Assembly (NCBI GenBank): GCA_031278025.1
Contig: JAITLF010000283.1
Coordinates: forward strand, 1 to 8,149
Length of the DNA: 8,149 bases
Source: Treponema sp.
GTDB taxonomy: Bacteria > Spirochaetota > Spirochaetia > Treponematales > Breznakiellaceae
Direction: 5' to 3'
How positions within the stretch are numbered: position 1 is the stretch's first letter; each line of letters begins with the position of its first letter. This document shows, in pieces, positions 1 to 6,897 of the stretch. The notes under the pieces are model-generated. The model had not been told where the DNA came from. It saw only the letters and a program-made list of their open reading frames with translations, and made no database searches. The translations under genes were made by a program, and so were the position numbers.

Positions 1-57
1 CCCCCCCCCCCCCCCCCCCCCCCCCCCACCTCCCCCCCGATGTCCGCAACGGGGGGG
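1..57. repeat. Poly-C tract with a facing poly-G run
   Basis: The window opens with 27 consecutive C (1-27), then A, CC, T and another run of seven C (32-38). A run of seven G follows at 51-57. The C7 and G7 runs can pair as a 7-bp GC stem around a 12-base loop, and the G run could also pair in many registers with the longer C tract. No credible gene covers it. It may be a real slippage-prone tract or a sequencing or assembly artefact at a contig edge; the sequence alone cannot tell. Confidence 0.75.
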
Positions 58-137
58 CCGGCATTTTCAACCTATCACTCATCATTCGCTCCTCTGGTAC
101 TAATATACAATGGAATCCCGAAAAAACAATCCCTTTT

Positions 138-3697: not shown

Positions 3698-4552
3698 ATG
3701 GAACTGGTGAAGGCCCGCATACTCGGGTACTGTATGGGGGTACGCCGGGCGGTGGAGTTGGCTTACGATCAGGCCGCCCAATCAGGCCGGGTGTATACCA
3801 TAGGCCCCCTGATTCATAACCCCCAGGTTCTGAAAGACTTGAAAGGACGGGGCGTGGAGGTTCTGGAAGAAGGCTGTTTGCCCTGGGATCTTTCCGGGAC
3901 GGTGGTCGTCATCCGGGCCCACGGGATTAGTCCTAATCTGGAAGCGGAACTGGTTTCCCGAGGATGCCGTATCGCCGACGCCACATGTCCCAAGGTCAAG
4001 GCGAGCCAGATGAAGGCTCTGGCCCTTGCCGGGGCGGGATGCCGCGTCTTCCTTGCCGGTGAAGCCCGTCACGGGGAGATAGCCGGCATACGAGGATATG
4101 CGCCGGGCTGTACCGTAGTTGCGGACGGGGACGAAGCGGCCCTGGCTGCGGAACGGCTCTTCCTGGAAGAACCCGGCGCCCGGACCGCCCTTATAGGCCA
4201 AACTACCATTTCTCCCGATGAATACGCCGCCATAGGAGATGCCATCCGGTCATTTTTTTCTAGCCTCCAGGTTATCGACACTATCTGCGGCGCAACCCGG
4301 GACCGGCAGAACGCCCTTCGGGAACTCTGTGGCAAGGTTGACGCGGTGATCGTTGCCGGAGGCAGGGAATCCGCCAACACACGCCGTCTTCTTGCGATTG
4401 CCGAATCCTCCGGTAAGCCCGCGTGGCTTGTGGAGAACATTGAGGGGATACCGGCGGAAGTCGCGTCCTGCACTACGGTAGGTCTCAGCGCCGGCGCTTC
4501 TACCCCGGACGAGGTTATCCGCGCCATTGAGGCGAAGATAGCGGTACTTTAA
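3698..4552 (+). CDS. ispH: IspH, 4-hydroxy-3-methylbut-2-enyl diphosphate reductase
   Basis: IspH (LytB) is the last enzyme of the non-mevalonate isoprenoid pathway. It reduces HMBPP to isopentenyl and dimethylallyl diphosphate with a [4Fe-4S] cluster. All three cluster ligands are visible: C12 in G-Y-C-M-G-V, C97 in D-A-T-C-P-K and C197 in D-T-I-C-G-A-T. Substrate-site residues are present too: H40, H75 (R-A-H-G), H125 and E127 (A-R-H-G-E), T169 region in Q-T-T, S225/N227 in S-A-N and S268 region in A-S-T-P-D. At 284 residues it is a standard single-domain IspH without a fused S1 domain. The gene starts 28 bp after secF and may be read from the same transcript; no good ribosome-binding sequence precedes the ATG, so the start rests on the N-terminal fit to the family. 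Confidence 0.96.
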   Translation: MELVKARILGYCMGVRRAVELAYDQAAQSGRVYTIGPLIHNPQVLKDLKGRGVEVLEEGCLPWDLSGTVVVIRAHGISPNLEAELVSRGCRIADATCPKVKASQMKALALAGAGCRVFLAGEARHGEIAGIRGYAPGCTVVADGDEAALAAERLFLEEPGARTALIGQTTISPDEYAAIGDAIRSFFSSLQVIDTICGATRDRQNALRELCGKVDAVIVAGGRESANTRRLLAIAESSGKPAWLVENIEGIPAEVASCTTVGLSAGASTPDEVIRAIEAKIAVL

Positions 4553-4600
4553 GGCATCCTCATTTCCTCTTTGCGGTGCAACAGGCTGCAGGAGGGAGGT

Positions 4601-4842
4601 ATGAAACATACCAGATTGGTGGGCTTTTTGCCTTCGGATTCCTGGTGTTTTTACTCCAGGGATGGTTTAACCCTATTACCGCAGTTCCCCCGACAATGCC
4701 AAGCGAAAATAAGAGTAGGGTAGAGTACCAATCAAAGCATTCTGGAGAAGGAAAAATATTTGTAAGTGGATTGCCCCCATTAAGGGGGCCTCCTCAAGCC
4801 ACCGGCTATGCCGTGGTCTTTGACTTATTGCTTTTAGTCTGA
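4601..4842 (+). pseudogene. Possible frameshifted small secreted or membrane protein
   Basis: A strong ribosome-binding sequence (GGAGGGAGG, 4591-4599) stands just before an ATG at 4601. The reading frame from this ATG begins M-K-H-T-R-L-V-G but closes after 40 codons at 4721-4723. In the next frame, L-F-A-F-G-F-L-V-F-L-L-Q-G-W-F follows from 4624 and stays open to a TGA at 4840-4842. Joining the frames by one extra G in the GGG run at 4621-4623 gives a basic N-terminus plus a hydrophobic core, like a signal peptide or anchor, and about 80 residues in total. I do not recognise a family. It may be a recent pseudogene, a sequencing indel, or chance; the frame-2 ORF could alternatively start at GTG 4576, which has no good ribosome-binding sequence. 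Confidence 0.3.
4773..4816 (+). terminator. Two adjacent hairpins between convergent ispH and shikimate kinase genes
   Basis: GCCCCC (4773-4778) and GGGGGC (4784-4789) form a 6-bp GC stem with an ATTAA loop. CCACCGGC (4799-4806) and GCCGTGG (4810-4816) form a 7-bp stem with one bulged C and a TAT loop. The second is followed by a T-rich but broken stretch (4817-4835). Lying between two genes that point at each other, these are candidates for a bidirectional terminator. A canonical U-tract is lacking on both sides, so the call is weak. Confidence 0.35.
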
Positions 4843-4960
4843 GGTTGTTTCAAAACCCGTGCCGGCTTTCCGCAAGTCGATTTTCACGATCGTGAACGCT
4901 CCATTTTTGATCGTGAAAACCGGGACGCTGAACTCAAGGCGCGGGTTTTGGAACAGTCTC
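4841..4960. mobile_element. MITE element A, 120 bp with 23-bp inverted ends and GTCT target duplication
   Basis: The ends 4841-4863 and 4938-4960 are inverted copies matching at 19 of 23 positions. They start GAGGTTGTTTCAAAAC on the left and, read inwards from the right, GAGACTGTTCCAAAAC. The four differences become G-U pairs in plus-strand RNA, so the arms can pair without a break. An inner perfect 11-bp inverted repeat (TTTTCACGATC, 4881-4891; 4909-4919) and the palindrome TTCACGATCGTGAA (4883-4896) fill the centre. GTCT flanks both sides directly (4837-4840 and 4961-4964). The element has no room for a transposase, so it would be moved by one encoded elsewhere. Its right end lies inside the shikimate kinase gene and supplies that gene's last codons and stop. 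Boundaries are supported by the ancestral reading restored on removal. Confidence 0.8.
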
Positions 4961-5563
4961 GTCTGATAATAGTTCCAGGAGTTTGAATAGTTCCTGGCCT
5001 GTTTCCTCCGGCGTCTTGCCTTCTCCCGATACCGTAAGGTGCGCAATCTCCCGGTATGCCGCCGCCCGGCGCACATGGAGTATCCAGTGGGTCTCCCGGG
5101 GGCTTGCGGTGTCGAGAAAAGGCGGCATCTCCCCGCCCTGCGCCGACGCCTGGCTGATCCGCTCCCAGGCCGTTTCTGCGGAGGCCTCCAGGTTCACCAG
5201 GGAGAACCCGTTTCCCTCACAAAGAAGCTGCCGTGCCTTGGGGTTATCAATTATCCCCCCACCAGCGGCAATGACCCCAGGAGCGTTGCGGTCCTGCCTG
5301 ACGATACCTCCGCACTCCGCAACACCCCTTGAGGGTTGAACGGGGAATAAGCTTTCCAGGGCCCGCAGTTCCGCCGCACGGAAGGCCTCAGGCGATTCCT
5401 TAAACAAGGCGCGGGAACTTTTTCCTGTTTGGGCTTTGATGAGTTCATCCAGATCGGTGAAGGCGCCCCCTAGGAGTTTGGCTAATTCCCTGCCTGCACT
5501 GGTCTTCCCCGAATGCTTCGGTCCAAGTATGACAATATGATGAACAAATGGTGAAATTCTCAT
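4934..5563 (-). CDS. aroK: Shikimate kinase-like protein, C-terminus extended by a MITE
   Basis: Shikimate kinase phosphorylates shikimate with ATP in the chorismate pathway. The 209-residue product shows Walker A G-P-K-H-S-G-K-T (14-21), the D-L-D pair for shikimate (D37, D39), F-R-x-x-E (61-65) with the substrate Arg R62, and A-A-G-G-G-I-I (99-105). The adenine-side R-R-A-A-A-Y-R-E-I-A motif lies at 165-174. Two features are unusual. The lid region, normally R-P-L-L, reads M-P-P-F-L-D (146-151), with no Arg at the expected place. About 18-20 extra residues lie between 73 and 95. Residues 202-209 (E-T-V-P-K-P-A-P) and the stop are encoded by element A; before its insertion the gene would have ended at D201. 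The product is probably a true kinase of the family, but activity on shikimate is less certain. No clear ribosome-binding sequence is seen; the start is set by the family N-terminus. Confidence 0.8.
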   Translation of the reverse strand: MRISPFVHHIVILGPKHSGKTSAGRELAKLLGGAFTDLDELIKAQTGKSSRALFKESPEAFRAAELRALESLFPVQPSRGVAECGGIVRQDRNAPGVIAAGGGIIDNPKARQLLCEGNGFSLVNLEASAETAWERISQASAQGGEMPPFLDTASPRETHWILHVRRAAAYREIAHLTVSGEGKTPEETGQELFKLLELLSDETVPKPAP

Positions 5564-5565
5564 AG

Positions 5566-5580
5566 ACTCTACCCTAGAGT
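5566..5580. promoter_or_regulatory. Short palindrome in the divergent promoter region
   Basis: ACTCTACCCTAGAGT is a 15-bp perfect inverted repeat with 6-base arms and a CCC centre. It begins 2 bases upstream of the minus-strand shikimate kinase start and lies in the 41-bp gap shared with the plus-strand PrsW gene. A -10-like TAAAAT on the plus strand is at 5587-5592. It could be an operator or a small hairpin in the kinase mRNA leader that affects initiation. The assignment is inference only. Confidence 0.3.
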
Positions 5581-5604
5581 AACGATTAAAATAAAACCAG
5601 AGCC

Positions 5605-6322: not shown

Positions 6323-6897
6323 AATGAAACCGCCGTATCCCTTACCGGGAAGGCGATCTCCCCCGTTGATACAAGGAAGTCTGGTGCGGCGACCGTTACA
6401 GTAAGCGGCGGCAATACCCCTAACCGTGATATTGACGCAGCCTTGCTGGGAACCTGGAGAGACAAACCGGTAGTGCCCGGTTACGGTACACCCGGGGATA
6501 TTCTGACCGTTACCTTTACCGAAACAACGGTAATATGGGGCGGGAGCGCGGCAGACTGTGTCAAAACTCAGAAAATCGCGATGATGCCGCTATATATAGC
6601 GGTGTAAGACCACATAAAAAAGCAAACAACACTATATATACAAAAGGCAATGGGTTTTGACACAGTCTGGCGGGTAATACTCTCAACACCACGTTGGCCC
6701 ATATACCAGGCCTACGGTTCCTACGCAGGGGAGGCCAAGAACGGCAATATCAATCTGGTATACATAGTTCCTACCCTCGACAGGCAGTCATACACGTGTT
6801 ATACCTACATCAGTAACGATAATGGAGAACTTGCGCTAAAAGTATCAGGCTACACCTTTGCTACGTTGACCAAAAACGGCGTCGACACCAGGTCCTC
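6323..6897 (+). pseudogene. Remnant of a beta-rich surface or lipoprotein, broken by element B and a frameshift
   Basis: An open frame without any usable start runs through 6323-6551 and reads A-V-S-L-T-G-K, then D-A-A-L-L-G-T-W-R-D and I-L-T-V-T-F-T-E-T-T-V-I-W-G-G. This Gly-Thr-Trp plus alternating beta pattern recalls small lipocalin-like or surface lipoprotein domains. Element B then interrupts it and brings an in-frame TAA at 6605-6607. After removal of the element and one GCGG, the frame continues S-A-G-N-T-L-N-T-T-L-A-H (to 6702). One extra base around 6703 then shifts it to Y-Q-A-Y-G-S-Y-A-G-E-A-K-N-G-N-I-N-L-V-Y, which runs to about 6897. The N-terminus and signal peptide are missing. 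I cannot name the family; the decayed state is well supported. Confidence 0.65.
6552..6669. mobile_element. MITE element B, 118 bp with 16-bp perfect inverted ends and GCGG target duplication
   Basis: The ends CAGACTGTGTCAAAAC (6552-6567) and its exact reverse complement (6654-6669) define a 118-bp element. GCGG lies directly outside on both sides (6548-6551 and 6670-6673). A 16-bp perfect palindrome, CCGCTATATATAGCGG, sits inside at 6587-6602. There is no coding capacity. Its tips agree with those of element A at 13 of 16 positions, and size and target length also agree. It interrupts a surface-protein remnant, which rejoins in frame when the element and one GCGG are removed. A 3-bp reading of the duplication (GGC, element 6553-6668) is also possible and gives an in-frame join too. 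Confidence 0.82.

Follow-up and report, generated by a model that had tools for sequence, protein, structure and literature searches.

A palindromic, MITE-like element of 120 bp (element A, positions 4841-4960) almost certainly inserted just ahead of the original stop codon of a shikimate kinase gene of Treponema sp., and the last eight codons of that gene and the stop that it now uses lie inside the element. The window, that is, the whole stretch of 8,149 nucleotides analysed here (contig JAITLF010000283.1), contains yajC, secD, secF and ispH (LytB), a minus-strand gene for the shikimate kinase, and genes for a PrsW-type protease and the ribosomal proteins S12 and S7. Its source habitat is presumably a termite gut, where such treponemes live. 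A run of 27 C at the start of the window (1-60) may be an artefact of assembly or of the contig end.

The kinase gene and its new 3' end

The shikimate kinase gene occupies positions 4934-5563 on the minus strand and encodes 209 amino acids, of which residues 1-201 are ancestral. Its SKI domain (PF01202) scored 84.5 bits against a Pfam cut-off of 22.1 and the nucleotide-binding motif GPKHSGKT is present, which places the protein among the shikimate kinases; it also resembled solved shikimate kinases in the PDB, and its scores against the NCBIfam shikimate kinase models fell below cut-off. Searches of plasmids with the kinase gene ('near' mode) and of phages with positions 4800-5600 ('distant' mode) gave no match.

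As the original prediction held, ORF translation by script on the window put codons 202-209 (ETVPKPAP, 4960-4937 on the minus strand) and the TGA stop now in use (4936-4934) within element A. The element is flanked by a perfect target-site duplication (TSD), GTCT at 4837-4840 on the left and at 4961-4964 on the right, which reads AGAC on the coding strand. The right copy consists of the final base of codon 200 followed by all of codon 201 (D201), and the insertion point falls between codon 201 and the original stop. When the element and one GTCT were removed by script and the flanks joined, the frame gave, again as predicted, a protein of 201 amino acids ending ...LLELLSD, followed by TAA at 4836-4834. 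This TAA, on the minus strand, remains intact in the window, shifted by 124 bp and no longer in frame. The proposal that the insertion hit the stop codon and extended an apparently intact enzyme was therefore right about the extension, with the SKI domain present, and wrong about the hit: we rejected destruction of the stop, because the TAA is merely displaced. In another frame of the minus strand, an 80-aa ORF (5076-4834) crosses element A from one side to the other and has the original TAA as its stop.

Element A is short and, at 120 bp, too small to hold a transposase gene, and it has both terminal inverted repeats and a target-site duplication, as expected of a MITE. The outer 24 bases of its two ends matched at just 19 of 24 positions in a script run on the window, and an inverted repeat at 4841-4863 and 4938-4960, with 23-bp arms that are 83% complementary, was found independently. 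The window contains a second member-like element, and many occur in related genomes. The perfect duplication, the inverted repeats and the large related family uphold the view that a mobile element was the source of the coding end. Rfam gave no matches up to E = 5 across the locus (4500-5100).

In an AlphaFold model of the kinase, built on a 20-sequence alignment and with a mean pLDDT of 82, the last helix spans residues 185-201, and residues 203-209 have pLDDT values below 50. Since the tail comes after the last kinase helix and is predicted to be disordered, ETVPKPAP is probably flexible and near-neutral.

The fold of element A on the minus strand, which is the coding strand, is very stable (-51.5 kcal/mol, z -5.95), and the hairpin might have been kept as a 3'-end structure, a putative terminator or exonuclease block, with the tail as its by-product. 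We consider this explanation possible but rather unlikely. It fits the finding that ORFs of at least 100 aa, not all of them real genes, end inside or no more than 150 bp before an element on 102 of the 208 sides of 104 elements. Against it, no T run follows the hairpin on the coding strand, and a hairpin formed by an IS200-type end already lies downstream of the original stop. The latter belongs to the right-end remnant of an IS200/IS605-type element (4770-4829, plus strand) just beyond the original kinase stop; the remnant shares 92% identity across 61 bp with the sequence directly following a TnpA ORF (L075, 1329-1836) that scored 143.4 bits against a cut-off of 55 for NCBIfam IS200, and the minus-strand fold of 4760-4836 has a z of -3.79. 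An ORF at 4576-4842 passes through this remnant. Retention as a 3'-end structure is in any case compatible with the insertion history.

Related elements and a candidate mobiliser

We searched for the family with two-ended patterns made from element ends in 195 genomes of the family of L003, the closest MAG locus to the window (Treponema sp. isolate Iy174_bin49). A first, strict pattern matched only 5 of the 195 genomes, and looser patterns were used instead; these matched 53 genomes with a spacer of 0-30, 13 with 31-61 and 37 with 62-92, and a reversed control pattern had no matches in all 195 genomes in each of the three spacer ranges. The fetched loci yielded 229 non-redundant related elements, and 109 of these had perfect 4-bp flanking repeats. 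In 1000 re-pairings of flanks the mean was 4.3 and the maximum 12, a control that omits the step of keeping the candidate with the best duplication among overlapping ones and so somewhat favours the observed 109. The excess over the re-paired maximum argues that the flanking repeats are not due to chance. The duplications prefer A as the first base and T as the last (0.72 each, both orientations pooled), and 105 of the 109 perfect ones start with A or end with T. On sequence grounds, element A is a member of a large family of MITE-like elements that occurs in related genomes and makes AT-rich 4-bp duplications. Our literature searches found no paper on this element family.

A 128-bp DNA query comprising the element and its duplications found no full-length close copy of element A in the 195 genomes and gave only partial matches, to the ends or the interior, in 12 of them. 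Ends resembling those of element A, with GGCGCGGGTTTTGGAACAG in common, were present in genome G030 (L099, and L095 in the opposite orientation). The interior of element A has a look-alike elsewhere, in a tandem array (L081:1420-1646) whose unit measures 21/42 bp (GATCGTGAATGCGCC...). The second member-like element of the window, element B (6552-6669), has 118 bp and a GCGG duplication, and each of its ends departs from the end pattern at two positions. With the element omitted, one frame runs through the site, so element B seems to have split a gene remnant.

A DDE transposase was first met as PF01609 fragments at two loci (L218 and L233), each beside one family-like end; searches with PF13751 and PF01609 in 14 genomes led to an insertion sequence (IS) only through these two. 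The DDE transposase query matched 23 of the 195 genomes, with no match in the element-rich genomes G067, G098, G107, G094 and G180. Seven IS-like copies had an end broadly of this type on both sides, 1.17-1.24 kb apart (L352, L356, L358, L360, L374, L375 and L379). The most similar ends were those of L374 (GAGCCTGTTGCAAAAC twice, 1216 bp) and L379 (GAGCCTGTTTCAAAAC twice, 1174 bp), the transposase of the latter being matched as two overlapping pieces. A perfect duplication (TCTA) was present in only one of the seven, L360 (GAGCCGATTTCAAAAT twice, 1217 bp). The transposase, of about 370 aa, matched the models of IS1182-type and IS5-type insertion sequences best, at 101.9 bits against a cut-off of 270 for IS1182 and 74.8 against 140 for IS5_4; we assigned it to neither family, every NCBIfam score being below the curated cut-off. 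The 1.2-kb insertion sequence, with its similar ends and DDE transposase, is the best candidate for a putative mobiliser, and a good one.

Other gene ends that carry family elements

The 218 sides of the 109 perfect-TSD elements include 63 with a gene-like ORF, as judged by a codon score based on long ORFs of the same loci; this score does not amount to gene calling, and antisense ORFs may be among the 63. We named ORFs as genes only where family matches exist. Four genes end with a regenerated stop, unchanged length and a perfect duplication: those for FliL (L003, by Pfam), EF-G (L157), a PhnE-like permease (L320, 202.1 bits where the cut-off is 216.7) and an unnamed protein (L321). In each, the element starts directly after the T of the stop, and this T with the GA of the element makes TGA. 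Nine gene-like ORFs end in this way across the junction (T|GA), and four of the eight that could be tested are exact. The others are SmpB (L142), two residues shorter than the empty site gives, and L135, L337 and L269, in which removal of the element would lengthen the frame by 22, 39 and 205 codons. The lipoprotein of L143 was discarded as an exact case, its apparent exact stop being meaningless with none of four duplicated bases matching.

Nine gene-like ORFs end well inside an element. The natural stop lies no more than three codons from the insertion in the window and in L084, L282 and L349, and 11-83 codons further on in L146, L160, L192, L269 and L331. Tails like that of the kinase occur in an unnamed protein (L349, EVVPKPGWF), in a protein with an LPG_synthase_C domain (L282) and in a lipase-like fragment (L084). 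The citramalate synthase of L115 ends in the tail ETVSKP... (...LLSETVSKPKVLERRP), with three of four duplicated bases matching and the natural stop four codons past the insertion; no such tail motif was found in the 119 other citramalate synthases among the best 120 of 7977 relatives, query included, that were read. Three further candidates were set aside as comparable cases: SerC (L134), where the rebuilt site gives no stop and three of four duplicated bases match, MurE (L118), which sits at a contig end, and ArgB (L097), where one element end was not recognised. At L134:360-1502, serC would stay in frame for some 400 further codons if the element were omitted; with its imperfect duplication, this may be decay. 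Elements also lie just downstream of genes that by eye look the same in pairs of loci: smpB (L142 and L184), EF-G (L157 and L177) and an LPP20-type lipoprotein (L015 and L143). These may be either old shared insertions or repeated ones.

We compared the positions of insertions with those expected for 54 gene-like ORFs whose natural stop lies near an element, the window's own case included; the expected counts use the target preference measured on the same 109 copies. Four insertions (L003, L157, L320 and L321) directly follow the T of the stop, where 1.2 were expected. The last four codons through the first base of the stop held nine insertions, including that of the window, against 5.6 expected (P = 0.097), and 39 of the 54 lie 13-150 bp downstream of the stop. 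AT-rich target choice and the loss of insertions inside genes explain most of this pattern, and the level reached (P = 0.10) does not demonstrate that the family targets stop codons over and above its A..T preference. The four exact insertions would suit a family that actively targets stop codons, its GA terminus adapted to make TGA and so to spare its hosts. The count for the whole stop region and the many insertions downstream speak against this, as do the T|GA ends, of which one falls short and three stand for overruns, and we think active targeting very improbable. Scarcely more probable is the proposal that an abundant MITE family with GA...TC ends, inserting after an A..T target, makes insertion at stop codons safe and is a recurrent, lineage-wide editor of C-termini. 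If it were true, the T of a stop and the GA of an element would restore TGA, and another frame would give short, similar tails of the form E-x-V-P-K-P.

The empty site, known systems and meaning

We found 451 relatives of the shikimate kinase, read the best 120 including the query, and aligned 27 with the query. The last 30 residues of the 119 others among these best 120 of 451 contain no VPKP-like motif, in agreement with the expectation that relatives free of the element should lack the tail. The closest among the listed relatives, P0002 (75% identity), ends ...FKLLKLLSD, at the residue matching D201, which bears out the prediction of an ancestral protein of 201 residues. P0008 ends ...ILSD, and four more relatives (P0004, P0011, P0014 and P0016) end ...LLSDKSNKI; for all six the evidence consists of protein C-termini. 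In the window, the flank past element A, read on the minus strand from 4835 in the next frame, gives KSNKS. The two flanks were thus once contiguous, to judge from the four relatives, in which SD runs directly on into KSNKI.

At the DNA level, L003 was the sole close relative compared. Its identity to the window is 88% in the S12-S7 region and 79% in that of the kinase and protease, and it has no element at the kinase end, the blastn identity beginning at base 4965. Its kinase frame runs a few residues further (...FIQLKPKNI), in another frame. This locus supports the absence of the element rather than the exact position of the ancestral stop. The C-termini of the kinase group vary in sequence and length, other aligned relatives ending differently, and this variability is all that favours the tail being an old native C-terminus of a kinase subgroup with a coincidental element-like pattern, which we rejected as next to impossible given the ends of the listed relatives, the contiguous flanks in four of them, the perfect duplication and the whole element family.

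In the history that we propose instead, element A is a non-autonomous palindromic MITE moved in trans, most likely by the DDE transposase of the 1.2-kb insertion sequence. Sequence comparison shows that it inserted between the D201 codon and the TAA with a 4-bp target duplication, AGAC. Ribosomes would then enter the element in the frame GAG-ACT-GTT-CCA-AAA-CCC-GCG-CCT and terminate at its internal TGA, adding ETVPKPAP. The family as a whole prefers AT-rich A..T targets, insertions would survive selection where the core of a gene is uncut, and some copies at gene 3' ends regenerate a stop or add a short tail. We hold this mechanism as a whole, mobiliser included, to be very likely, with a confidence lowered by the distribution of the transposase and the target-site duplications of the IS-like copies. 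If the insertion history is true, the DNA behind P0002, P0004, P0008, P0011, P0014 and P0016 should have AGAC followed directly by TAA or AAAAGCAATAAG, without the element.

MITE-supplied C-termini have already been published, and the shikimate kinase adds another case. QMITE2 of Coxiella burnetii, at the 3' end of enhC, presumably supplies 33 residues of EnhC in strain Dugway, and further copies extend a few bases into the ends of genes (PMC5896051). Element A is like it in giving C-terminal residues from a MITE at a gene 3' end; compared by size and repeats, QMITE2 has 150-190 bp and direct repeats of 7-11 nt (PMC5896051), and element A 120 bp and 4-bp repeats. The enterobacterial RU-1, of 127 bp, is described as extending, from the 3' end of the gene, the amidase ECA3499 of Erwinia carotovora, with the normal stop apparently removed (PMC2759123). 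Here too a conserved enzyme is lengthened past its domain and shorter relatives exist, whereas the hosts are other ones and the RU-1 tail is longer, reaching residue 496 against 461 in others (PMC2759123). The palindromic elements of Rickettsia, about 150 bp long, carry the code for a conserved peptide and add it to host proteins by in-frame fusion (PMC10969869); in element A, by contrast, the frame fused with the host gene is not open through the element and closes at TGA after eight codons.

In the kinase gene, the states before and after a mobile element provided a housekeeping enzyme with its coding end can be cleanly compared, the empty site being readable in relatives. Elements of the same family at the ends of the genes for citramalate synthase, FliL, EF-G and the PhnE-like permease provide a comparable set in which the neutrality of such tails can be judged. 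Short palindromic repeats can thus alter gene ends in these genomes.
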